Assembly (NCBI GenBank): GCA_012719415.1
Contig: JAAYAK010000210.1
Span: forward strand, 1 to 64,000
DNA from: Syntrophorhabdus sp.
Lineage (GTDB): Bacteria; Desulfobacterota; Syntrophorhabdia; Syntrophorhabdales; Syntrophorhabdaceae
Length of the DNA: 64,000 bases
Reading direction: 5' to 3'
Positions 7,900-22,102 of the stretch are shown one piece after another. The notes below the pieces were generated by a model. It had not been told where the DNA came from. It did not search any database and saw only the letters and a program-made list of their open reading frames with translations. Each line of letters opens with the position of its first letter. The stretch's first letter is position 1. Made by a program: the position numbers and the translations under genes.

Positions 7900-9360
7900 C
7901 TAGCTGAAGATACCGACTGCCTTCTGGGCCATAAGGAGAAAAGCCTTCGGGAAGATCCCCATATGCAGAAGGGCCCATATGCAGATGAGCATGACGAGCC
8001 CATATCCCGGAGCCTTGTCGGCCGTCCCCGGCTCGCCGATGGTCTCCCTGAAGTACATGTACATCATCACCCTGAGATAGTAGTATGCCGCCACAACGCT
8101 GTTGAGGAAACCGATGATGGCCAGCCAGTAATACTGGGCCTTCACCGCTGTGCTGAAGACATAGAACTTTCCCATGAAGCCGGCCAGTGGTGGTACCCCG
8201 GCAAGGGACAGGAGAAAGATGCTCATGCACAGCGCTACGAAGGGGTGTCGGGTACCGAGGCCCGCGTAACTGTCGAGGTCGCTGCTGTTCTCGCCCTTCT
8301 TCTGCAGAACGATGACCACCGTAAAGGCGCCGATATTCATGAAGGAGTAGGCCATGAGATAGTAGAGCATGCTTGACGCAAGCGTCCTGTCGCCCGTTAT
8401 GAAAGCGACCAGTATGTATCCGGCGTGGGCGATGCTCGAATACGCCAGCATCCGCTTGATATCACGCTGGACAAGAGCGGTGATATTCCCGACACACATC
8501 GTCAGCACCGCCAGCACCCAGATAATCTCCGACCAGCCGAACTGGAAGGGAACGAAGGCGGTGAAGAAGACGCGTATCAGGGCCCCGAAGGCCGCAGCCT
8601 TCACACCCGTCGCCATGTAAGCGGTGATGGAGGTCGGAGCGCCCTGGTACACGTCGGGCGTCCACATATGAAAGGGCACCGAGGCTATCTTGAAACCGAA
8701 GCCGACGATGAGAAACCCCAGACCTATTATGAACATCGTCGCCGAAAAGGGCTGCTTCATGAGAAAGAACTTCTTGAGCTCGGCCACATCCACAAGCCCC
8801 GTGGACCCGTAGATCATTGCCATCCCGTAGAGCAGGAATGCCGTCGCGAAGGCGCCAAGGAGAAAATACTTCAGCGCCGCCTCCACGGACGACAGGTTGC
8901 CTCTCAGGAGCCCGCAGAGCACATAGATCGAAAGGGACATGACCTCGAGGCCGATGAAGATCGTGACGAAATGATGCGACGATGTCATGACCATCATGCC
9001 GAGAACCCCGAACATCAGGAGCGCGTAGTATTCCCCCGACCCTATCTCTTCCCGGTCAGCGTAGCTGAGGGAAACCACGGACACGAGGACAAGGATGGCT
9101 ATGAAGAGACCCTTGAAGAAGGTCCCGTAATTATCGATGGTATAGAGCTGGTTGAACACCTCCTGGTTCGCACCCCAGAGGTTCACCGTGAAGTACAGGG
9201 CGCAAACGGACCCGACCACGGAAAGCACACCGCATGTCTTCGAGGCGACAGGTCCCCTCGTCAGGCCGCCGACGATAAGCAACAGAAGCCCCCACCCGGC
9301 CAGCATGATCTCGGGCATTATCCATCTAAACTCACAGGCAGGTATCATTGAAGCGTCCAT
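7900..9360 (-). CDS. nuoN: NADH-quinone oxidoreductase subunit N
   Basis: A 486-residue polytopic membrane protein of the Mrp-antiporter-like family, with about 14 hydrophobic segments. It carries the conserved segments KYFLLGAFATAFLLYG and LLRVFFTAF-type transport helices, and a lysine/histidine-bearing helix around KIASVPFHMWTPDVYQG typical of NuoN/M/L. It forms one of three proton-pumping channels of Complex I in the cytoplasmic membrane. It is the last gene of the nuo operon, 12 bases after nuoM. The start is taken at 9360, but a Met five codons in is possible. Confidence 0.96.
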   Translation of the reverse strand: MDASMIPACEFRWIMPEIMLAGWGLLLLIVGGLTRGPVASKTCGVLSVVGSVCALYFTVNLWGANQEVFNQLYTIDNYGTFFKGLFIAILVLVSVVSLSYADREEIGSGEYYALLMFGVLGMMVMTSSHHFVTIFIGLEVMSLSIYVLCGLLRGNLSSVEAALKYFLLGAFATAFLLYGMAMIYGSTGLVDVAELKKFFLMKQPFSATMFIIGLGFLIVGFGFKIASVPFHMWTPDVYQGAPTSITAYMATGVKAAAFGALIRVFFTAFVPFQFGWSEIIWVLAVLTMCVGNITALVQRDIKRMLAYSSIAHAGYILVAFITGDRTLASSMLYYLMAYSFMNIGAFTVVIVLQKKGENSSDLDSYAGLGTRHPFVALCMSIFLLSLAGVPPLAGFMGKFYVFSTAVKAQYYWLAIIGFLNSVVAAYYYLRVMMYMYFRETIGEPGTADKAPGYGLVMLICIWALLHMGIFPKAFLLMAQKAVGIFS

Positions 9361-9372
9361 TAACAGGCACCC

Positions 9373-10947
9373 CTATCTTGTCATATTCGTGTTCGTCACT
9401 TCCCGGGCCATCTTCGCCGGGACCGTGTTCCCTTCGAGAACCCGCGCCTGGGCACTCTTCTGCTTCACAAAGGCCAGATATTCTGTCACTGACGTGTCCA
9501 TCTTCTTGAAGAACATCTTCGGGTACACACCCATCAGGATTATGAAGAACACCATGCACGTGAGTATGAGGATCTCGCGGCCGTCAAGGTCCTTCAGGTT
9601 CCTGTTCTCTTCCTTCGTCACCACCCCGAACATCACTCTCTGGAACATCCAGAGCATGTAGACCGCTCCCAATATGACGCCGGTGGTCGCGAGCGTACCG
9701 TAGACAACGTTATTCTTGAAAGCACCCATCAGGATCAGAAACTCGCCGACAAAACCGTTCGTTCCCGGCAATGCGACGGATGAAAGGGTGATTATCATGA
9801 AAAAGGTGGCGAATATGGGCATCACCTTCGAAAGGCCGCCGAAGTCGGCTATCATCCTCGTGTGCCTTCTCTCGTATATCATGCCGACGATAAGGAAGAG
9901 GCCGCCCGTTGATATGCCGTGGTTGAGCATCTGGTAGATACCGCCCTGAACCCCCTGCATGTTGAAGGCGAATATTCCGAGCATAACGTAGCCGAGGTGG
10001 CTTACGCTCGAGAAGGCGATCAGCCTCTTCAGGTCAGGCTGCATCATGCTGACGATGGCGCCGTAGATGATGCCGATAACCGCCAGTATCGACATGAGGG
10101 GAATCGCGTCGATCGCCGCGGCCGGGAAAAGAGGGATTGCGAACCGGATAAAACCGTAGGTCCCCATCTTCAGGAGAACCCCGGCGAGAATGACGCTGCC
10201 CGCCGTCGGCGCTTCCGTATGGGCGTCCGGCAGCCAGGTGTGCACCGGGAACATGGGAACCTTGATGGCAAAGGAAAGGGCAAAGGCCCCGAAGAGCCAG
10301 TACTGCTTCGCGATGGGAACACTTGCCTTGTAGAGCTCAAGGACGTTGAAGGTGTACACGCCGGTGCTGTTGTAGTAGAAGAAGTAGAGCGTCAGGATCG
10401 CAACGAGCATGAGGACGCTTCCCGCCATGGTGAAAAGGAAGAACTTTATGGCGGCGTATATCCTCCGCGGGCCGCCCCATACACCGATGAGGAGGTACAT
10501 GGGGATCAGCATCAGTTCCCAGAACACGTAGAAAAGCACGAGATCCAGGGCGCAGAGTGTCCCTATCATCGCCGTTTCCAGGAAGAGGAAGGTTATGTAG
10601 TACTCCTTGACCTTGTCCTCGATGGCCTTCCAGGAACAGAGCACGCATATGACCGTAAGGAATGTCGTCAGGAGGACAAGCAGAAGACTGATCCCGTCTA
10701 TGCCCAGAAAGTAGCTGATGCCCCATTCGGGAAACCAGTCCGCCTTTTCAACGAACTGCATCGTCTTCGCAGCGTCATCGAACTTCCAGAAGAGAGGGAG
10801 CGACACGGCGAGCTCTATCAGGGAGATGACAAGGGTGAAGACCTTGATGAACTGAGCATTCCTGCGATTGGCAAAAAGCAGGATCACTGCCCCGAGGAGC
10901 GGAAAGTATATGAGGAAGCTGAGTATTGGGACCGACATTACCGTCAT
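9373..10947 (-). CDS. nuoM: NADH-quinone oxidoreductase subunit M
   Basis: A roughly 524-residue antiporter-like membrane subunit with the conserved [16 protein letters not shown] (glutamate in TM5) and [14 protein letters not shown] segment, features of the proton channel of this subunit. It pumps protons in Complex I. I place the start at the ATG at 10947, which has AAGGTG upstream, rather than at a GTG two codons earlier. nuoL ends 10 bases before. The C-terminus beyond the last helix is a charged tail of about 25 residues. Confidence 0.96.
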
Positions 10948-10957
10948 GAACACACCT

Positions 10958-12943
10958 TCACAAGATTCTCGAAATAAGATAGCCGATAACGATGATCGCG
11001 CCGAATATTATCGCAAACGCATAGCCCTGAACGAATCCGCTCTGTATCTTCCGGATGAGACTGCCGATGCCCGACAGCGCCGCGGCTATCCCGTTTATGA
11101 TGCCGTCGATGATCGTCTCGTCGAAAAAGTCCTTGCAGACCTTTCCGAGTTTGAACAGTCCCTTCACGAATATGAATCCGTACAGTTCATCCACGAAATA
11201 CTTGTTGTGCACCAGCGTGAACAGGCCGTGGAACTTCTCCACGAACCTCTTCGGGATATTGGGGTTCTTCATGTAGAACAACCAGGCGATGAATATCCCC
11301 AACAGGCCGATGATGATGGCCCCGATCATGAGCTGCATCTCCGCGCTGGTTTCCGCCCCGTGGCCTTCGGCGGCCGAGGCGAACGCCGTGCTCACAATGC
11401 CGAAACCGCCTGAATGCGTTGCCGCGGCCGGGGCATGGTGACCGACGACCGGCTCAAGCCATTTCTCTATGTGGTTCGAACCCCCCAGCAGGTGGGGCAC
11501 GCCGACATAGCCTCCGATGATGCTGAGAACCGCCAGGACCATGAGCGGTATCGTCATGACCTTCGGCGATTCGTGGATATGATGCTTCACCTCTTCTGAC
11601 GCCCTGCATTCGCCGTGGAAGGTGTTAAAGAACATCCTGAACATGTAGAAGGCTGTGAGCCCAGCGGTGACCGCGCCCAGCGCCCAGAACCAGAAACTGT
11701 GGTACCTGCTGAAGGCCATCCAGAGTATCTCGTCCTTGCTGAAGAAACCCGACAGGCCCGGGACGCCGGCTATCGCCAGGCAGGCGATCAAGGTGGTCCA
11801 GTACGTGATGGGTATCTTCTTCCGCAGGCCGCCCATCTTCCTCATGTCGAGCTCCCCGCTCATCGCGTGCATCACGCTGCCCGCGGCGAGAAAGAGCAGG
11901 CCCTTGAAGAAGGCGTGGGTCATGAGGTGAAAGATGCCCGCGGCATAGGCCCCGGCACCGACGCCGACGAACATGTAGCCGAGCTGGCTCACCGTCGAGT
12001 AAGCAAGGACGCGCTTGATATCATACTGCGCGCAGCCTATGGTCGCCGCGAAGAACGCTGTCAAGAGACCCACGACGGTGACAACAAGCAGCGTCGTCGG
12101 AGCAAGGACATAGAGGAAGTTCAGCCGGGCGATCATGTAGACGCCGGCGGTAACCATCGTCGCGGCGTGGATCAGCGAGCTGACAGGCGTCGGGCCTTCC
12201 ATGGCGTCGGGAAGCCACACATACAGAGGTATCTGTGCCGACTTGCCCGTGGCACCCACGAAGAAAAGAAGGGTTATTATCGTTGCCAGGCCAGGACCGA
12301 GAAGATGGGCGTTCGCCTGGAGCTCCGAGAATTTCAGAGTCCAGACCCCGGCGGCCCCGAGGGCTCCCACGAGGGTGAACACACCGAGGAGGAAGCCGAA
12401 GTCTCCGATCCTGTTCACGATGAAAGCCTTCTTGCCGGCATTGGAGGCGGAATCCTTCTCGTACCAGAAGCCGATGAGCAGGTACGAGCAGAGTCCCACA
12501 CCCTCCCATCCGACGAACATGAGAAGGACATTGTCACCCGTCACGAGCGTGAGCATCATGAAGACAAAGAGGTTGAGATAACAGAAGAACCGCCTGAACC
12601 CCGGGTCGTCATGCATGTAACCCACCGAATATATGTGTATCAGGGACCCCACACCGGACACGACGAGGCACATGATTATCGACAGGGCGTCGATCCTGAA
12701 ACCGATCTGTGTCTTGAAATCCCCGGACACGATCCAGTCGAAAACGGTCTTCTCGAAGACCCTGCTTTCAGGCGCAAGCTGCAGGAACTGGACGAAGATG
12801 GTTGCCGACACCGCGAAGGATGCTATGACCGAAAGGCAGGCAACCCAGGCGGTCAGTGTCTTCGGGAAACGAATCCCGACAAGGCCGTTTATGAGGAACC
12901 CGATTGCCGGAAACGCCGGTATAAGCCAGATAAGGTCAGCCAT
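10958..12943 (-). CDS. nuoL: NADH-quinone oxidoreductase subunit L
   Basis: A 661-residue protein, the largest antiporter-like subunit, with a long lateral amphipathic helix expected in the C-terminal part. It shows [49 protein letters not shown] and [17 protein letters not shown], all hallmarks of NuoL. The C-terminal region ([17 protein letters not shown] and following) continues to a final membrane helix that anchors the lateral arm. A GAAGGGG site precedes ATG 12943. Length fits the family; nothing is missing. Confidence 0.97.
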
Positions 12944-12957
12944 TTAAAACCCCTTCT

Positions 12958-13269
12958 TTACCCCTTGAGCAGATTAAAATCGTCAACGTGCACCGTGCCC
13001 TTCAGCCTGAATATGAGCACGAATATGGCGAGCCCCACCGCCGCCTCCGCTGCCGCAACGGCCATGATGAAGATGACGAAGATGGTCCCGTCCAGTGAAT
13101 TGAGAAAATTCCCCGAGGTGATGAAGCTCAGGTTCACCGCGTTCAGCATGAGCTCTATGCACATGAAGATCACGATCGCGTTCCGCCGTGTAATGACACC
13201 CACCGCCCCCACGGTGAAGAGCACCGCCGAAAGCAGGTAATAGAGGGTCTGCGGTATCTCGGGCAACAT
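12958..13269 (-). CDS. nuoK: NADH-quinone oxidoreductase subunit K
   Basis: A 103-residue protein with three membrane helices and the two buried glutamates expected in NuoK ([13 protein letters not shown] and [11 protein letters not shown]). It helps conduct protons next to NuoJ and NuoA. The start is chosen at the ATG at 13269 because AGGAGGGAGAGA lies directly upstream and the product then begins [14 protein letters not shown] like other NuoK proteins; a longer reading frame to 13302 would run into nuoJ. Confidence 0.96.
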
Positions 13270-13279
13270 TCTCTCCCTC

Positions 13280-13813
13280 CTAATCCTTTCTTTTCCTCGC
13301 AAGCAGTACGGCCCCGACGATGCCTACGAGGAGAAGTATCGAGGCGATCTCGAAGGCGAAGGCATACTTGCCGTAGAGGAGCGTACCCACGGCCCTGACA
13401 TTGCCAACCTCGGCCATCTTCTGAACGCTCCAAACCCCTTTTTGTCCCGCGTCGCTATACGTGAACACCCCCGCCAGAACCTGCAGGAAAAGCATTATGG
13501 TAATGACCCCGCCTATAAGCTTGGCAAAGGAAAGCTTTCTCTTCCACTGCGCGCCCCATTCCAGGTGGATCAGCATTATGACGAAAAGGACGAGCATCAT
13601 GATCGCCCCGGCATAGACCATGACCTGGGCCACGGCGATGAACGTCGCGTTGAGCAGCACATAGAGGATCGCGACGGAGAAGAAGGTCACGATCAGCCAG
13701 AGGGCGCTGTGGATGGGGTTTTTCCTTGTCACCATCATGAGCGACGATCCCGTCGCCACAAGGGCCGCAACAACAAAGATAAACCATTTGAATCCGATAC
13801 CGATGCCGATCAT
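13280..13813 (-). CDS. nuoJ: NADH-quinone oxidoreductase subunit J
   Basis: A 177-residue membrane protein with five hydrophobic segments, including [18 protein letters not shown] and the conserved [18 protein letters not shown] helix, where the pi-bulge of NuoJ lies. It connects the quinone site to the antiporter chain. Its ATG overlaps the nuoI stop by four bases (ATGA), so translation is coupled. Confidence 0.95.
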
Positions 13814-14229
13814 TTTCTATCCTCATACATGGCAAGGAGTTTCTTCATGTCCAGTACAAAATCCTCTTTCCGGTAATGCGCCTGTTCGTAGTCTTTGCCG
13901 AGATTGATGGCGTTCACCGGGCAGGCGTCCTGGCAGAAGCCGCAGTAGATGCATCGCCACGGATCGATCTCGTATCGTATCGGATAGCGTTTGCCATCGA
14001 ATCTCTCGCCTATCTCCAGCGTGATGCACTGGTTGGGGCAGACCTTGACGCAGAGGCCGCAGGCGACACAGGCCGTTTCCCCGGCCTCGTTCTTCTTGAA
14101 GTAGTGTATACCACGCCATCTTTCGGGGACTTCGTGTTTCTTCTCCGGATACTGATAGGTTATGGGCTTTGTGAAGACCCGCGTGAACGTCAGCCTGAGA
14201 CCTTTGAGAAGGGGCAGTATCTGTTTCAT
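13810..14229 (-). CDS. nuoI: NADH-quinone oxidoreductase subunit I (2x[4Fe-4S] ferredoxin)
   Basis: A 139-residue peripheral subunit with two classical CxxCxxCxxxCP motifs: CVACGLCVKVCP (about residues 61-72) and CIYCGFCQDACP (about residues 100-111), which hold clusters N6a and N6b and pass electrons from NuoG to NuoB. The ATG at 14229 overlaps the nuoH stop by one base (TGATG); the product then begins MKQILPLLKGLRLTF as in other NuoI. A longer upstream frame over nuoH is not real. Confidence 0.96.
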   Translation of the reverse strand: MKQILPLLKGLRLTFTRVFTKPITYQYPEKKHEVPERWRGIHYFKKNEAGETACVACGLCVKVCPNQCITLEIGERFDGKRYPIRYEIDPWRCIYCGFCQDACPVNAINLGKDYEQAHYRKEDFVLDMKKLLAMYEDRK

Positions 14230-15221
14230 CACAGCACCCCCATTGCCACGAGGGCCGCGGTAACGACAACGTTGGCCAGGGTGAGGGGCAGGAGAACCTT
14301 CCATCCGAACTGCATGATGTGGTCGTATCTCAACCTGGGGTATGTCCCCCTCTCCCAGATGAAGAAGAAGATGACACAGAAGACCTTTATCAGGAACCAG
14401 ATCGGACCGGGCAGCCAGGGCCCCATCCATCCGCCAAGGAACAGGGTGGTAACGATGGCGGCCACGGTGAACATGTGGGCGTACTCGGCGATCATGAACG
14501 TCGCGAACTTCATACTGCTGTACTCGATGTTGAAACCGCATGCCAGCTCGCTCTCCGACTCGGGCATATCGAAAGGCGTCCTGTTTATCTCCGCGAGTCC
14601 GGCCACGAGGTAGAAAAGGAAGCCTGCCGGGTACTTGATCACGAACCACATCCCTTCCTGCGCCGTAACGATGTCACGGAGATTGAGGGACCCGGCGAGG
14701 ATGATGGTACCGATGACCGCAAGGCCCAGAGCCACTTCGTAGCTGATCATCTGCGCCGCGGCACGCAGGGCCCCAAGCACACCGTACTTGTTCCCCGATG
14801 CCCACCCGCCGAGAACGACGCCGTATTCACCCAGGGTCGCGAGAGCGAGGAGATACAGAAGGCCCGTATCCAGGTCAGCCACGACCAGCTTGATCTGCCT
14901 GCCCAGGAAGGTCACGGTGTCTCCGAAAGGGATGACCGCGAACATGGAGAGAGCCGCGAAGAGGGATATTCCCGGTGCAAGCACGTAAAGGGTCTTGTCC
15001 GCCTCATCGGGTATGATATCTTCCTTGAAGAAGGACTTGACGCCGTCCGCGATCGGCTGAAGAAGACCGAAAGGCCCCACCCTGTTGGGACCGGGCCTGA
15101 CCTGCAGACGGCCGAGGAGCTTTCGCTCGAGGAGAGTGGTGTAGGCCACGCACCCCATGAGGACGAGCACCACGACGATGTTCTTGACCACCATTTCAAT
15201 CAAAGTATAGAGCGATTCCAT
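14229..15221 (-). CDS. nuoH: NADH-quinone oxidoreductase subunit H
   Basis: A 330-residue membrane subunit with eight predicted helices and the conserved quinone-chamber loops: LERKLLGRLQVRPGPNRVGP, FFKEDIIPDEADK, and INRTPFDMPESESELACGFN with its acidic cluster. It forms the quinone entry tunnel with NuoB and NuoD. Length is normal and the stop overlaps the start of nuoI. It follows nuoG by three bases. Confidence 0.97.
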   Translation of the reverse strand: MESLYTLIEMVVKNIVVVLVLMGCVAYTTLLERKLLGRLQVRPGPNRVGPFGLLQPIADGVKSFFKEDIIPDEADKTLYVLAPGISLFAALSMFAVIPFGDTVTFLGRQIKLVVADLDTGLLYLLALATLGEYGVVLGGWASGNKYGVLGALRAAAQMISYEVALGLAVIGTIILAGSLNLRDIVTAQEGMWFVIKYPAGFLFYLVAGLAEINRTPFDMPESESELACGFNIEYSSMKFATFMIAEYAHMFTVAAIVTTLFLGGWMGPWLPGPIWFLIKVFCVIFFFIWERGTYPRLRYDHIMQFGWKVLLPLTLANVVVTAALVAMGVL

Positions 15222-15224
15222 GCC

Positions 15225-17630
15225 TTAACCTTTTTTCACCGTCACTGCGATGTGTTTGCCGTATTCGTCGGCAAGTTTCAATATGTCCTGCCTGTTCTTC
15301 AGCATCCTGTATTCAAGCACGCCCTTGCCAAGGCCTTCTTTGACCGTGACAGGCTGCTGCAGTGTCCCGTGGTCCGATTCGACGATGACCTGACCACCGT
15401 CGGCTATGCCCAGTGCCGCGGCGTCTTCCGGTGATATGAAGAGCCTGTCTCCGGCAACCGCGGGATTCTGGAGGTATACCATCTTCGAGTAGACACCCTG
15501 TCCCGCCAGATGATGATGGAAGAAGACATTCCTCAGGACAAGGGTAAAGGGCCGCGCCGGCTTGTCCGCTTCGGCCCTGACCGCTGACGCGAGGCGCGCC
15601 TGACCGTTCGTGGGCCTGACCATCGCCCTGCCGCTGTCGTCCGCCACGAGGACCTCCTTCCCGAACAGGACCGTGGATGCCTCCTGTTCGTCCCTGTACA
15701 GACCGCCGCCCAGCCGGTCGAGGAGGAGTCTCAGGAAGTCGAATCCAGGTGACGATCCGCCTTCAGCACGCGCCACCTTGCGCATGAAACCGTCTTCCGC
15801 GACATAGCTGCCGTCCTTCTCAGCAAAGCTGCCGGAGGGGACGACAACATGCGCGTGCGCGGAGGCGCCCGTCGGGAACATGTCGCAAACCGCCACAAAC
15901 GTCTTGTTCTTCAATGACTCTTCCACTCTCTTTCCGCCGAGGTAGTGGAAGGGATCGTCCTCATAGATAAAGAGGCCCTCCGCCTCACCCAGAACATCCC
16001 CGGAAGAGACGGCATCGGGCAGAACCGAAAGGACACCGACGGCGTTGGACTGGAGCGCGGTGGGCATCACGACCCCCGCCTTCTGAACACCCTTCACGAG
16101 GCAGAGGTTGAGGAGTGCTTCCATACTCTCCGTCCTGTCGCTCACACCCGTTCCGAATATGACGGCCACGCGGGAGGCCGCGGCGAAAAGAGCATAGAAC
16201 TTGTCCACGCTCTTCTCGTCGGCCCCGGTCCGTACTGCATCCCCTTTACCTCCACCGGCACTACCCGGGAAACCTTCCAGACTCCCCGCCTCAGGGTCGT
16301 TCTTTTTGTCCGCGATCAGCTGCGACGCGACGGCGTTGAAAAACAATGCGTCGGAGCCCGGGGTGACCTTCACCCACACGTCACAGGCTCTCGTCAGTGC
16401 CGTGGGGGAAGGATCGACGACCGCTACCTTCGCACCCTTCATCTTGACCGCCTCCCGTACCTTATTGGCAAGGAGATGGTTGTTGCCGAGAAGATCGGCA
16501 CCGGCAACGACCACAAGATCACAGCCATTGATCGCATCGTATTCGTAAGGATAGGGAATTCCCATGCGGCGCAGCGCTTCGAGCACCCTGCCCGTATGGT
16601 AGTACCCGGCGGTCCCGAACCGGGTCTTCGAGAACGTGCCCGCGATCTGTGAGATCATGTAGGCTTCCTCGTTGGTCGCCCGGGGGGACACGATGAAACC
16701 GATCGTCCTACCCTCCTTGTCGAGCTTCGCGAGGGCGGCCGCGGTTGCCTCGACTGCCTCGACAAGGGTGGCTTCTGATACCGCCGCGCCCTGTCTGACG
16801 GTCGGCGTCGCAAGCCGTGCCTCGTTGTTGGCGAAGTCGTACCCGAAGCGTCCCATCACACAGAGGGAACCCTTGTTGGGAAGACGCTCCGGACGGGTCA
16901 CGACCTTCGTCACGAACCTGTCCTCGAACACGTCGAGATCTAGGGAGCAGCCGAAACCGCAGTGAGGACAGGTCGTCGTCTGCCGCTTCGTCTGCCACTT
17001 CCTGCTCTTCAGGGGGCTTTCCTGTTCGGTGAGGGCTCCGACAGGACATACGGAGAGACACTCGCCGCAGGATATACAGTCCTCGGGCGTCTTCGGGGCC
17101 ATGGCCGCTTCTATGCCGCTCCCCGTCAGTTCCAGGACCCTGCGACCGGAGATCTCCCGGCACGCATGGACGCAACGCAGACAGAGCACGCATCTGTCCT
17201 CGGAATACCTGATCAGCGCCGTGGCGTAAGGTTTCGCTTTCTTGGGCTCCCGCCCGGCGGTAAGGTCGACGGATTCGATCTTGTGTTCGAAAACGAGGTC
17301 CTGCAGACGGCATTCCCCGCCGGAGTCACAGATGGGACAGTCAAGGGGGTGATTGATGAGAAGGAACTTGAGGTATTCCTGACGCATGGCGAAGAGTTTT
17401 TCCGACCGGGTCGTGACCGATATGCCCTCCACGGCGGCCGTGGTGCACGATGTCATCGGCTTTTCGTACCCCTCGATCTCAACTATGCAGAGCCTGCAGG
17501 AACCAATGGGGAGAAGGTTCTCGTGGTAGCACAGAGTGGGGATGTAGATGCCGTTCTCCCGTGCAGCTTCGAGTATCGTCTTGCCTTTCTCGGTCTTTAT
17601 CTCTTTGCCGTCTATCTTGAGTGTTATCAT
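15225..17630 (-). CDS. nuoG: NuoG-type subunit with formate-dehydrogenase-like body
   Basis: An approximately 801-residue iron-sulfur subunit. In order: an N-terminal [2Fe-2S] ferredoxin domain (cysteines near residues 33, 44, 47 and 61), a His/Cys [4Fe-4S] segment (HPLDCPICDSGGECRLQD), two 4Fe-4S motifs (CVLCLRCVHACR and CISCGECLSVCP), then a molybdopterin-oxidoreductase-like body opening with CPHCGFGC and LCVMGRFGYDF. The last two blocks look closer to formate dehydrogenase alpha subunits than to E. coli NuoG. Where a formate dehydrogenase has Cys or Sec, this protein has a GYYHTGR segment, so it probably carries electrons rather than oxidising formate. The start ATG 17630 has GGGAACGGGA before it. 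Confidence 0.9.
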   Translation of the reverse strand: MITLKIDGKEIKTEKGKTILEAARENGIYIPTLCYHENLLPIGSCRLCIVEIEGYEKPMTSCTTAAVEGISVTTRSEKLFAMRQEYLKFLLINHPLDCPICDSGGECRLQDLVFEHKIESVDLTAGREPKKAKPYATALIRYSEDRCVLCLRCVHACREISGRRVLELTGSGIEAAMAPKTPEDCISCGECLSVCPVGALTEQESPLKSRKWQTKRQTTTCPHCGFGCSLDLDVFEDRFVTKVVTRPERLPNKGSLCVMGRFGYDFANNEARLATPTVRQGAAVSEATLVEAVEATAAALAKLDKEGRTIGFIVSPRATNEEAYMISQIAGTFSKTRFGTAGYYHTGRVLEALRRMGIPYPYEYDAINGCDLVVVAGADLLGNNHLLANKVREAVKMKGAKVAVVDPSPTALTRACDVWVKVTPGSDALFFNAVASQLIADKKNDPEAGSLEGFPGSAGGGKGDAVRTGADEKSVDKFYALFAAASRVAVIFGTGVSDRTESMEALLNLCLVKGVQKAGVVMPTALQSNAVGVLSVLPDAVSSGDVLGEAEGLFIYEDDPFHYLGGKRVEESLKNKTFVAVCDMFPTGASAHAHVVVPSGSFAEKDGSYVAEDGFMRKVARAEGGSSPGFDFLRLLLDRLGGGLYRDEQEASTVLFGKEVLVADDSGRAMVRPTNGQARLASAVRAEADKPARPFTLVLRNVFFHHHLAGQGVYSKMVYLQNPAVAGDRLFISPEDAAALGIADGGQVIVESDHGTLQQPVTVKEGLGKGVLEYRMLKNRQDILKLADEYGKHIAVTVKKG

Positions 17631-17643
17631 TCCCGTTCCCTTC

Positions 17644-19593
17644 TCAACCAACCGCAATCATGCCTATCCTGTAACAGCGAAGACACCGTGAAGCCTCCGC
17701 GATCGCCTCATCGGTCCGGAAACCCTCTTCCACCTCGTCGAAGGTCCACTTCCTGACCTCGGGAGCCATCGGCCGCAGAAGATGTCTCGCACTGTCACCC
17801 AGAAGACCGACGTTCTCGTTCTTGTCGTAGACCTTGACATCGCCGAAGAACTTCACGAACTTCTCGCTCATGCGGGCCTTCGGTTTCTCGCCCTTCAAAT
17901 ACTCATCGATCTTCCAGGCGGCGCGCTTGCCGTTGCCGCAGGCGCGGACAAGGACGTCGGGGCCCGTTTCGCAGTCGCCGGCGGAGAACACGCCCGGCAC
18001 GTTCGTCTCGAAGGTCTCCTGGTCGACCCCGAAGGTGTTCCATTTCGTTATGGTAAAGTCCTCCCTCTTTTCCAGGAAGGAGAAGTCGACGGCCTGACCG
18101 ATCGCCGGTATGAGTATGTCCGTATCGATCACGAACTCGGAGCCCGGGACAGGGACCGGCCTTCTGCGCCCACTCGCGTCGGGTTCTCCCAGTTCCATGC
18201 GGATGCATTCGACGCCGACGACCTTGCCGTCCCTTTCAAGGATCCGTGTGGGGTTGCACAGGTAGTGGAACTCGACGCCCTCTTCCTCCGCTTCGTGGAT
18301 CTCCACCGGGTCCGCGGGCATCTCTTTCTTCGTACGCCTGTACACCAGGTGAACGTCCGGTTTGCCGACGCGGAAGGATGACCTCACACAGTCCATGGCC
18401 ACGTTGCCGCCGCCGACGACGACGACCTTCTTTCCCTCGGGATACGGGTCTTCCCCGTTGTTGATGTCGAGAAGATACTTCACGCCGGGGATGAAGCCGC
18501 GATACCCCATGTCCTCGCCCTTAACCCCCATGGGTGAAGAGCTGTGAGCACCGACACCGATGAAGACGGCATCGAAATCCTTCCGAATCTGGTCGATGGT
18601 TATGTCCTTGCCCAGGGTCACACCGTACCGCATGGTCACGCCGAAGGACTCCACAAAGGCGCCCTCGCTGCCGAGAATGACCCTCGGCAGACGATAATCG
18701 GGGATGCCCACCGCCGCCATGCCGCCCGGTTCCCCGAGCTTCTCGAAGACCGTCACGGGGTAACCCATCTGCGCGAGGTAGTAGGCGCAGGAAAGCCCGG
18801 CAGGACCGGCGCCGATGACGGCGACCTTCTTGTTCTTGTCTATCTTCGCTTCAACGTTGCGCTTCACGTTCTTTTCCAGCTCAAAGTCCGCCGCGAACCG
18901 CTTAAGGCTCTTAATGGAGATCGCCTCGTCGATGTTCGCGCGCCTGCAGTTGGACTCGCAGGGCCGGACACAGACCCTTCCCAGCGTCCCCGCAAGGCAG
19001 GTGTTCTCCCGTATCGTCACGAGGGATTCGGTGAACCGCCCTTCGCTTATCGCCTCCACGTACCTCGGGATATCGAGCTGGGTGGGGCAGACGCTCATGC
19101 AGGGGGCCGTGACGGACACCTTGTAGTCGCCCGCCTTCGCCTTGCGCCCTTCGGTTATCGACCGCTCGAACTCGGGGCCGAAGAACGAAAGGGCCTGAAG
19201 AAGGGGCACGAAACCCGTCTGGCCGATCTGGCACTTGGAGCCGTCCTTTATTCCGGCGGCGATGGCGGGGATCCTCTCAAGGTCCTCTTTCTTCCCCTGG
19301 CCATCGGCGATGCCCCTCAAAATGTCCAGAATGACCTTGCTGCCTATCCTGCAGGGCACGCACCGTCCGCAGGATTCTTTCTGGACCGCCTCGACGTACC
19401 TGACGGACATGTCGACGATATCCACGCTCTCATCACAGAGGATGATACCGTCCCATCCCATGAAGGCCTTGACGGGAAGACCCTTCTCGAACTCTCCGGG
19501 GAGCTTTACCTTGGGGGCTTCGAAAGACTCGCGGGCCTTACCCCTGTTGTCTATTATCTCACCCTGCCAGGAACTGAAGATCACGTCTGCCAT
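17644..19593 (-). CDS. Fusion of the NuoF Fe-S C-terminus to a GltD/NfnB-like NAD(P)H-FAD oxidoreductase
   Basis: A roughly 649-residue protein placed exactly where nuoE-nuoF normally lie. Residues about 40-130 match only the C-terminal part of NuoF, with SCGRCVPCRIG and SKCQIGQT supplying the N3-type [4Fe-4S] cysteines; the FMN/NADH-binding domain of NuoF is absent. From about residue 160 it becomes a GltD-like module: N-terminal cysteine-rich domain (CMSVCP, CLAGTLGRVCVRPCE), FAD dinucleotide fold (VAVIGAGPAGLSCAYYLA), second nucleotide fold (VVVVGGGNVAMDC) and a C-terminal GDCETGP. NAD(P)H would be oxidised on FAD and electrons passed to NuoG. AAAGGTTGACT precedes ATG 19593. Confidence 0.88.
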   Translation of the reverse strand: MADVIFSSWQGEIIDNRGKARESFEAPKVKLPGEFEKGLPVKAFMGWDGIILCDESVDIVDMSVRYVEAVQKESCGRCVPCRIGSKVILDILRGIADGQGKKEDLERIPAIAAGIKDGSKCQIGQTGFVPLLQALSFFGPEFERSITEGRKAKAGDYKVSVTAPCMSVCPTQLDIPRYVEAISEGRFTESLVTIRENTCLAGTLGRVCVRPCESNCRRANIDEAISIKSLKRFAADFELEKNVKRNVEAKIDKNKKVAVIGAGPAGLSCAYYLAQMGYPVTVFEKLGEPGGMAAVGIPDYRLPRVILGSEGAFVESFGVTMRYGVTLGKDITIDQIRKDFDAVFIGVGAHSSSPMGVKGEDMGYRGFIPGVKYLLDINNGEDPYPEGKKVVVVGGGNVAMDCVRSSFRVGKPDVHLVYRRTKKEMPADPVEIHEAEEEGVEFHYLCNPTRILERDGKVVGVECIRMELGEPDASGRRRPVPVPGSEFVIDTDILIPAIGQAVDFSFLEKREDFTITKWNTFGVDQETFETNVPGVFSAGDCETGPDVLVRACGNGKRAAWKIDEYLKGEKPKARMSEKFVKFFGDVKVYDKNENVGLLGDSARHLLRPMAPEVRKWTFDEVEEGFRTDEAIAEASRCLRCYRIGMIAVG

Positions 19594-19602
19594 AGTCAAC
19601 CT

Positions 19603-20775
19603 TTATTTGTCTATTTCACCGAGAACTATGTCGATGCTTCCTATCGCGGCGACCACGTCGGCCACCAGCGATCCCTCGATCATCTTCGACACGGAACCGA
19701 GGTTGAGGAACGAGGGCGGACGGATCCTCACCCTGTAAGGCTTTTCCGAGCCGTCGCTGACGATGTAGAACCCGAGTTCGCCTTTTGAAGACTCTATCGA
19801 CGCATATGCCTCACCCTTCGGCGGTTTGATGCCGTCGGCCATGATCTTGAAATGGCGGATGAGGGCGGCCATGTCCTTCGACACATCAGTCTTTTCCGGC
19901 GGCACGTATTCCGGCGCATCGGCCTTGATCGGCCCATCCGGGAGCTTCTGGATGGCCTGATCGACGATCCTCACGGACTGTCTCATCTCCTTGAGACGGA
20001 CGAGGTACCGGTCATAGATATCGCCTGCCGTGCCGAGGGGTATCTCAAAGTCGAAATCCTCATAGCTCGTATAGGGATACGCTTTGCGGACATCGTAATT
20101 GACCCCCGACGCGCGAAGCACGGGACCCGTCACACCGTACCCTATTGCATCCTCGGCACTCAAGGGACAGACGTCTTTCAGTCGCCTCTTCCATATGACG
20201 TTCTCCGTGAGCAGTGTTTCGTACTCGTCGATCCTGCGGGGGAGATCGTCGATAAAGGCCTTCGCCTCCTTCAGGAACCCTTCCGGAAGCTCTTCCCTGA
20301 GCCCGCCGAAGCGTATGTAGTCGGGCATGAGCCTCGCGCCCGAGACCTTCTCCAGGACCTTGAGGCATGATTCCCTTTCCCGGAAGCCGTAGAAGAGAAC
20401 CGTCATGGCACCCATGTCAAGGGCGTGCGTCGATACCCACAGAAGATGGGCGGCGATGCGCTGCAGTTCGCTCAGCATCACGCGAATGTACTGGGCCCGT
20501 TTCGGTATCTCTATGCCGAGCAGTTTCTCCACGGCAAGGCAGTAGGCCAGGTTGTTGGACATGCCGCTCGTGTAGTCGAGCCTGTCCGTGAGGGGCTGGC
20601 CCTGCCAGTAGGTCCTGTTCTCGAAGATCTTCTCAATACCGCGATGGAGATACCCGATGTCAGGGGTGCTTGACACGATGGTCTCGCCGTCAAGCTCGAG
20701 CACGACCCTCAGAACCCCGTGTGTGGCGGGATGCTGCGGCCCCATGTTGATCGTCATGTACTTGCTTTCAGCCAT
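19603..20775 (-). CDS. nuoD: NADH-quinone oxidoreductase subunit D (49 kDa)
   Basis: A 390-residue peripheral subunit with the N-terminal MGPQHPATHGVLR block and DIGYLHRGIEK, the quinone-binding His of HPATHG, and RIRPPSFLNL near the C-terminus, as expected for a hydrogenase-large-subunit homologue that has lost Ni ligands. It forms the quinone pocket with NuoB. The start directly abuts the nuoC stop (TAA ATG). Separate nuoC and nuoD genes, not a fused nuoCD, are found here. Confidence 0.97.
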   Translation of the reverse strand: MAESKYMTINMGPQHPATHGVLRVVLELDGETIVSSTPDIGYLHRGIEKIFENRTYWQGQPLTDRLDYTSGMSNNLAYCLAVEKLLGIEIPKRAQYIRVMLSELQRIAAHLLWVSTHALDMGAMTVLFYGFRERESCLKVLEKVSGARLMPDYIRFGGLREELPEGFLKEAKAFIDDLPRRIDEYETLLTENVIWKRRLKDVCPLSAEDAIGYGVTGPVLRASGVNYDVRKAYPYTSYEDFDFEIPLGTAGDIYDRYLVRLKEMRQSVRIVDQAIQKLPDGPIKADAPEYVPPEKTDVSKDMAALIRHFKIMADGIKPPKGEAYASIESSKGELGFYIVSDGSEKPYRVRIRPPSFLNLGSVSKMIEGSLVADVVAAIGSIDIVLGEIDK

Positions 20776-21267
20776 TTATGCCTTCTCCAGATCCACCACG
20801 AAGGGCTTGTCGAAATCCTTGCCTTCGAGGGGAAACTCCTTGCGCAGGGGATAGCCCTCGAAATCGTCGGGGTTGTATATCCTGCGCAGATCGGGATGGT
20901 TCGCGAAAGGCAGGCCGAACATGTCGTAGATCTCCCTTTCCAGGAAATTGGCCGCCTGCCACAGGTCGCTGGCCGTTTCGATGCCCTCGTCGCCCGTTCT
21001 CGTCTTCACCACTATCCTCGCGTTGTTCTTCGTCGAGCGAAGGATGTAGACAACCTCGAAGCGCGGCTCTTCCCCTGCGTAGTCCACCGCAAAAAGATCG
21101 ACGAGCATGTCGAAGAGGAGATCACGGTCGTACCTGAGATGGTCAAGGGCCTCGTGAATGCTGTCCCTGTCGACCATCGCGCTCGGTTCGCCGGGGGGCG
21201 TCGGCACGATCTTCACGCCTGCCACCTTATCGGAGAGTATTTTCAGAAACTCGCTGTTATCGCTCAT
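20776..21267 (-). CDS. nuoC: NADH-quinone oxidoreductase subunit C (30 kDa)
   Basis: A 163-residue peripheral subunit with the family signature [20 protein letters not shown] followed by [20 protein letters not shown]. It contacts NuoD and supports assembly of the connecting module. The ATG at 21267 overlaps the nuoB stop by four bases; a longer frame up to 21486 overlaps nuoB and has no homology. Confidence 0.95.
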
Positions 21268-21758
21268 GCGCTCTTCCCGGGCAATGATATCAGAGGTCTG
21301 TCCTTGATGGACTCTTTCTGGATCTTCTTCTGAAGCTCTATGATGCCCTTCAGGAGGGCTTCCGGCCGGGGAGGACATCCGGGGATGTACACGTCCACGG
21401 GGATTATCTGGTCCACACCCTGTACGACACTGTAGGATTTGAAGATGCCGCCCGACGACGCGCAGGCCCCGTACGCGATGACCCACTTGGGATTCGGCAT
21501 CTGTTCATAGATCCTGCGTACCACGGGGGCCATCTTCTTCGTCAGCGTTCCGGCCACTATCATGAGGTCCGACTGTCTCGGCGAGGGACGGAAGACCTCG
21601 GCGCCGAACCGGGCGATATCGTACTCCGCGGAGCTTGCCACCATCATCTCGAGGGCACAGCAGGCAAGGCCGAATGTGACAGGGAAGAGAGAATTCTTCC
21701 TGGACCAGTTGATGGCCCAGTCAAGCGTCGTTACAAGTACGTTCTTTTCTATTCCCAT
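21264..21758 (-). CDS. nuoB: NADH-quinone oxidoreductase subunit B
   Basis: A 164-residue subunit carrying cluster N2. It contains [11 protein letters not shown] with the unusual tandem cysteines, the third ligand in GACASSGG, and the last in [10 protein letters not shown]. It passes electrons to quinone at the NuoD/NuoH interface. It overlaps nuoA by 10 bases. Confidence 0.97.
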
Positions 21759-22102
21759 TCCAATGCACCTTTTTTCCAGATGTAGATGTACCCGATGAAG
21801 AGTATGAAAACGAAGACCAGCATCTCAATGAATCCGAAGAGCCCGAGGCGACGGGAGATGACTGCCCAGGGATAGAGAAAGATTATTTCGATGTCGAAGA
21901 CGAGAAAGAGCATGGCCACGATGTAGTACCGGATGGTCATTATCCGGCGCGTCGGGCCGCTCGTCGTCATGCCGCATTCATAGGGGGCAAGTTTTGTTCT
22001 GCTTTTCGTTCTGTGCCCGAGAACATGTGAAGCTCCGATTATCACCGCCGCGATGATCCCGGCAAGGCACATCATGACAAAGATCGCTACGTACTCGAGC
22101 AT
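21749..22102 (-). CDS. nuoA: NADH-quinone oxidoreductase subunit A
   Basis: A 117-residue membrane protein with three helices and the loop [16 protein letters not shown], whose ECG motif is diagnostic of NuoA. It is the first gene of the nuo operon, with an AGAGGA ribosome site and an 80-90-base leader from the promoter at 22195-22223. Confidence 0.96.

Follow-up and report, generated by a model that had tools for sequence, protein, structure and literature searches.

The NuoEFG electron-input module of a complex I lineage represented in Syntrophorhabdus sp. (contig JAAYAK010000210.1) has probably been replaced by an NADP-dependent formate dehydrogenase, made up of an SfrB-type FdhB and an FdhA, the latter of which, in this clade, would act as an iron-sulfur wire only. 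With the input module so replaced and the formate site worn out here, complex I is probably fed by NADPH. The function that best suits the enzyme encoded in the window (the whole stretch of 64,000 nucleotides that was analysed) would be that of a proton-pumping, non-bifurcating NADPH:menaquinone oxidoreductase, whose assembly, NADPH use and direction of electron flow we infer; gene order, domains, cofactor ligands, ancestry, selenocysteine signals and the decay of the molybdenum domain are shown by the sequences themselves.

First, a single intact gene occupies the position of nuoEF. On the minus strand, as are all window genes described here, an uninterrupted reading frame at 17644-19599 encodes 651 residues from a TTG, or 649 residues (17644-19593) from the likelier ATG at 19593; this fdhB/sfrB-like gene starts 3 nt after nuoD (19603-20775) and overlaps the gene called nuoG. 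As the initial annotation had claimed, its product joins the N3-type [4Fe-4S] tail of NuoF to a GltD-like FAD/NADPH domain, and Pfam divides it into NADH_4Fe-4S (PF10589; residues 64-146, 19162-19410), Fer4_20 (164-244, 18868-19110) and Pyr_redox_2 (257-555, 17935-18831), with no NuoF NADH/FMN domain found in the protein by the same search. The N3-domain cysteines (C75, C78, C81 and C121 in the 649-residue numbering) are invariant in 35/35 nuo-linked relatives; the Fer4_20 part carries C165, C169, C208, C212 and C216 together with the proximal-cluster lysine K231 (LKRF), and the FAD and NAD(P)H domain bears a conserved GxGxxA and YRR motif. The structure predicted from a 15-row alignment reached a mean pLDDT of 81.8, and a fold search returned a match confined to the GltD part, which lies nearest to the StnC/NfnABC structures and is homologous to NfnB. 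Because the same one-piece protein recurs at 86-95% identity in nine other Syntrophorhabdus genomes, with a contig-cut piece in one more, the fusion is no artefact of frameshift or assembly, nor are its halves separate genes. Purifying selection acts on both halves, at dN/dS values of 0.075-0.10 for the NuoF tail and 0.03-0.054 for the GltD part, which together with the intact frame also rules out a pseudogene.

Around this gene, the membrane arm and Q module are complete, in order and in one operon, comprising nuoA (21749-22102), nuoB (21264-21758), nuoC (20776-21267) and nuoD upstream, and nuoH (14229-15221), nuoI (13810-14229), nuoJ (13280-13813), nuoK (12958-13269), nuoL (10958-12943), nuoM (9373-10953) and nuoN (7900-9360) downstream. 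Searches of this contig found neither NuoE nor any NuoF tail besides the fusion, which bears out the reported absence of NuoE and of the NADH/FMN domain from the operon. The accompanying statement that no further Nuo subunit is missing is correct for NuoA-D and NuoH-N and fails for nuoG, whose gene is not a canonical one. Compared with the 14-subunit Nuo/NDH-1 enzyme, then, the window shares NuoA-D, NuoH-N and the N3 domain of NuoF but lacks NuoE and the NADH/FMN domain, and has in place of NuoG a protein that derives from FdhA and bears one additional Fe-S cluster motif.

Second, that neighbour (15225-17657; 810 aa) is a decayed formate dehydrogenase with selenocysteine-keeping relatives, a feature that the initial annotation had missed. 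It keeps an FDH-type double [4Fe-4S] ferredoxin segment (17046-17192) with all eight cysteines (C156-C204), whereas canonical NuoG of relatives has only four of them. Its best solved match is the formate dehydrogenase alpha subunit of Rhodobacter capsulatus FdsABG (PDB 6tg9; 264 bits, versus 198 bits for the best NuoG); unlike the window pair, FdsABG is soluble, uses NAD and includes NuoE/NuoF-like FdsG/FdsB. In a tree, the window protein falls among FdhA proteins and at a great distance from the canonical NuoG that belongs to a second, normal complex I in some relatives. At the molybdenum site, the selenocysteine or cysteine followed by histidine that was found in 14 nuo-linked relatives was not found in the window protein, which reads GTAGYYHTG (16590-16616) where relatives have TNNVDHCARL-Sec-H. 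The FdhA of the window clade has thus lost its formate site, and with it formate catalysis, and has kept its Fe-S wire.

The relatives show what the intact form looks like. In 14 of the nuo operons that hold the fusion, the nuoG slot consists of two open reading frames, in one frame, around a TGA that lies within TNNVDHCARL-U-HSSTVAGLA, a motif that marks the active site in selenocysteine formate dehydrogenases; the shared frame rules out a split of nuoG into two subunits (345 + 540 aa). The name nuoG is a misnomer in such operons, and ordinary gene calling wrongly cuts the selenocysteine-bearing forms in two. At two loci (L066, L244), the selenocysteine FdhA gene is placed before nuoA. Of five loci searched with the Rfam model SECIS_3, four (L067, L249, L254, L262) matched exactly on the TGA at E values of 1e-12 to 3e-7, with scores of 45-61 bits that lie slightly under the Rfam gathering cut-off of 63; the fifth, L066, had no hit at an E threshold of 0.001. 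SelB scored above its cut-off in 14 of the 15 genomes tested, the exception (G055) being one with a decayed site. Besides the GTAGYYHTG of the window clade, the decayed motifs include RLTHSPT, RLGSAPT and GRFCLEP, and one genome with RLCLSST (G112) is nested among the selenocysteine forms. Mean identity in the Fe-S N-terminus is much the same in selenocysteine forms (0.56) and in decayed nuo-linked forms (0.58), and that of the molybdenum domain falls from 0.65 to 0.37; therefore, the wire has been selected without the formate site, a pattern that is expected of a complex I subunit and odd for a free formate dehydrogenase. The tree contains two changes between the active and decayed states, whose direction it does not give by itself.

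Third, the fusion belongs to a family that was already known. An N3 tail fused to GltD, at a length of ~650-715 aa and with an adjacent SfrA/FdhA partner (here the gene called nuoG), is the architecture of soluble enzymes, namely SfrB of Geobacter SfrAB and FdhB (SfrB2) of Moorella thermoacetica. A Moorella thermoacetica protein is 44.6% identical to the fusion over its full length, has the same three Pfam domains and is followed by an SfrA-like gene; it fits the published description of the beta subunit of the NADPH-dependent formate dehydrogenase of that organism (SfrB2, 76 kDa; PMC13040438). The evidence fits an origin in which an existing FdhB/SfrB was captured along with the FdhA that it pairs with, and the earlier view of a rebuilt NuoF is best given up. 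The homologous architecture upholds the proposed entry of electrons by a GltD-type FAD site and, with the conserved GxGxxA and YRR motif, makes NADPH the likely donor, in line with the NADPH preference suggested at the outset. What distinguishes the window pair is its place, since SfrAB and the Moorella enzyme are described as soluble and are not encoded in a nuo operon, whereas the window pair takes up the NuoEFG position within one that is otherwise complete.

Given the homology of the GltD domain to NfnB, one might imagine that its FAD bifurcates as in NfnB, so that electrons from NADPH would reach quinone and ferredoxin alike in a coupled reaction. We consider this highly improbable. The FAD-proximal cluster can be ligated by K170 in StnC, and the corresponding residue is a glutamate in bifurcating NfnB (PMC10482914); this position is a lysine in 83/83 aligned relatives, long and short, with no NfnB-type glutamate, and the Fe-S ligands are all kept. 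A lysine ligand as in non-bifurcating StnC rather than the glutamate of NfnAB leads one to expect simple, non-bifurcating oxidation of NADPH, and the ferredoxin coupling raised in the initial annotation is disfavoured on the same ground (PMC10482914). Furthermore, the window enzyme lacks the NuoE/NuoF FMN module on which StnAB relies. The StnABC/NfnABC transhydrogenases resemble the window enzyme in having a GltD domain whose proximal cluster is of the Lys type and which connects to a NuoG-like chain and to an FdhF domain that is inactive; they differ in that Stn has NuoE/NuoF-like FMN subunits that bifurcate, GltD fused to NuoG, and no membrane arm.

Fourth, the arrangement is widespread. The fusion is encoded, at E <= 1e-170, in 90 of 395 genomes sampled from all over the phylum, and inspection of the surroundings of ~60 loci placed it inside a nuo operon in 36 genomes of 19 families, in the order D-[FdhB]-[FdhA]-H with small variants; in this count, loci cut by a contig end (L059 and L256 among them) were placed manually, and L075 is the named copy of G002. 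Carriers known by name include Desulfacinum infernum, Moorella and the MAG Syntrophobacterales Delta_02. Two genomes (G038, G042) have a nuo operon without nuoG and encode elsewhere an FdhA that contains selenocysteine and falls in the same clade. No nuo genes were found beside FdhB in the genomes of two families (f41, f75). Both of these observations count against the proposed replacement. In the NuoD tree, nearly all FdhBA-linked NuoD proteins form one group (support 92), apart from canonical NuoD. In four genomes (G009, G028, G021, G037; loci L235, L236, L237, L238), the fusion type is accompanied by a canonical complex I that includes NuoF and NuoG. In another (G051, L276), the second complex I is headless; its locus contains two NuoM-like genes, and a GltD-like gene precedes nuoA. 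Our search of the literature, which was confined to openly licensed work, found no report of FdhBA in the NuoEFG slot.

Operon membership alone does not prove that FdhB and FdhA dock onto complex I. The pair could instead be a soluble SfrAB-like NADPH dehydrogenase (an NADP-formate dehydrogenase in the selenocysteine relatives) whose genes simply share a transcript with those of an 11-subunit, headless complex I fed by ferredoxin or another donor. FdhBA/SfrAB pairs without nuo genes do occur in the same phylum, and complex I of the headless kind is widespread among anaerobes, with an unknown donor in Desulfurivibrio (PMC12142623). In Desulfitobacterium, a separate FDH operon misannotated as nuoEFG has been argued not to be part of its complex I (PMC11238625). 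The headless enzyme further shares with the window separate nuoC and nuoD genes and the nuoABCD...HIJKLMN core; however, the window has the FdhBA pair inserted between nuoD and nuoH, and it is in exactly this slot that the pair is found over 19 families. That FdhB carries the N3 domain of NuoF and FdhA a NuoG-type N-terminus, and that the molybdenum domain of nuo-linked FdhA has decayed and the Fe-S wire has not, likewise argue against mere co-transcription, which we regard as unlikely and which leaves incorporation into complex I as the preferred reading. Some SfrAB-like pairs outside nuo operons also have a decayed FdhA (L265, L266, L272), and NADPH dehydrogenases derived from formate dehydrogenase thus seem to exist outside complex I too.

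Another possibility is that the true input module acts in trans and that the fusion is an accessory. The genome itself (99% complete) has a single nuoD, which rules out a second complex I with normal nuoEF; the absence of nuoE and nuoF from this contig does not extend to the rest of the genome, in which NuoE/NuoF-like proteins, complete ones included, are encoded on three other contigs (C68, C38, C314). One of these (C314, L050:2776-6851) bears a NuoE-NuoF-NuoG-like set with an adjoining GltD-like gene, possibly a bifurcating enzyme of the Bfu/NfnABC type, and this set or a hydrogenase diaphorase would be the candidate input. Yet the three NuoE/NuoF-like sets on C68 adjoin group A6 [FeFe] hydrogenases, the canonical operons of relatives (L235-L238) each retain a NuoF gene in the interval from nuoD to nuoG, and in a 100% complete genome (G101) the nuo-linked fusion is the sole NuoF-tail protein. 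Such a complex I thus exists in a genome without any other NuoF-tail protein, and we attach very little probability to an input in trans. Two of the other contigs encode proteins of 1017-1112 aa in which a complete NuoF (NADH/FMN) is joined to a full GltD (FAD/NADPH) (L049:11337-14390 on C68; L051:9420-12758 on C38); the one beside a group A6 [FeFe] hydrogenase on C68 is possibly an enzyme that links both nicotinamide pools to H2.

If FdhB and FdhA do form the input module, NADPH would reduce the FAD of the GltD domain, which would release single electrons through two [4Fe-4S] clusters; since the proximal one has the StnC-type lysine, no bifurcation would occur on this path. From there, electrons would pass to the NuoF-type N3 cluster and along the FdhA/NuoG chain, comprising a [2Fe-2S] cluster, a His-ligated [4Fe-4S] cluster and the dicluster, and then through NuoI and NuoB to menaquinone, with protons pumped by a normal membrane arm. 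Flow in vivo may take either direction; in reverse, the enzyme would make NADPH at the expense of the proton motive force. In relatives with an intact selenocysteine FdhA, formate would be a second donor that enters through FdhA.

Finally, the donor of NuoEFG-less complex I has been stated as unknown in the organisms studied (PMC12142623, PMC11238625), redox partners have been sought (PMC11238625), and an unknown oxidoreductase has been suggested to feed it (PMC12142623). For much of one phylum, the FdhBA head would answer in concrete terms the question of what feeds complex I without NuoEF, and it predicts proton pumping driven by NADPH and, in relatives, also by formate. We give roughly even odds to the broader proposal that a widespread branch of complex I has for its input head an entire selenocysteine formate dehydrogenase of the NADP-dependent kind, becoming a proton-pumping hub between formate, NADPH and menaquinone, and that the decay of its formate site, as in the window, repeats in living lineages the origin from a formate dehydrogenase that has been proposed for NuoG. 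With intact and decayed forms both at hand, this transition would be open to direct study.
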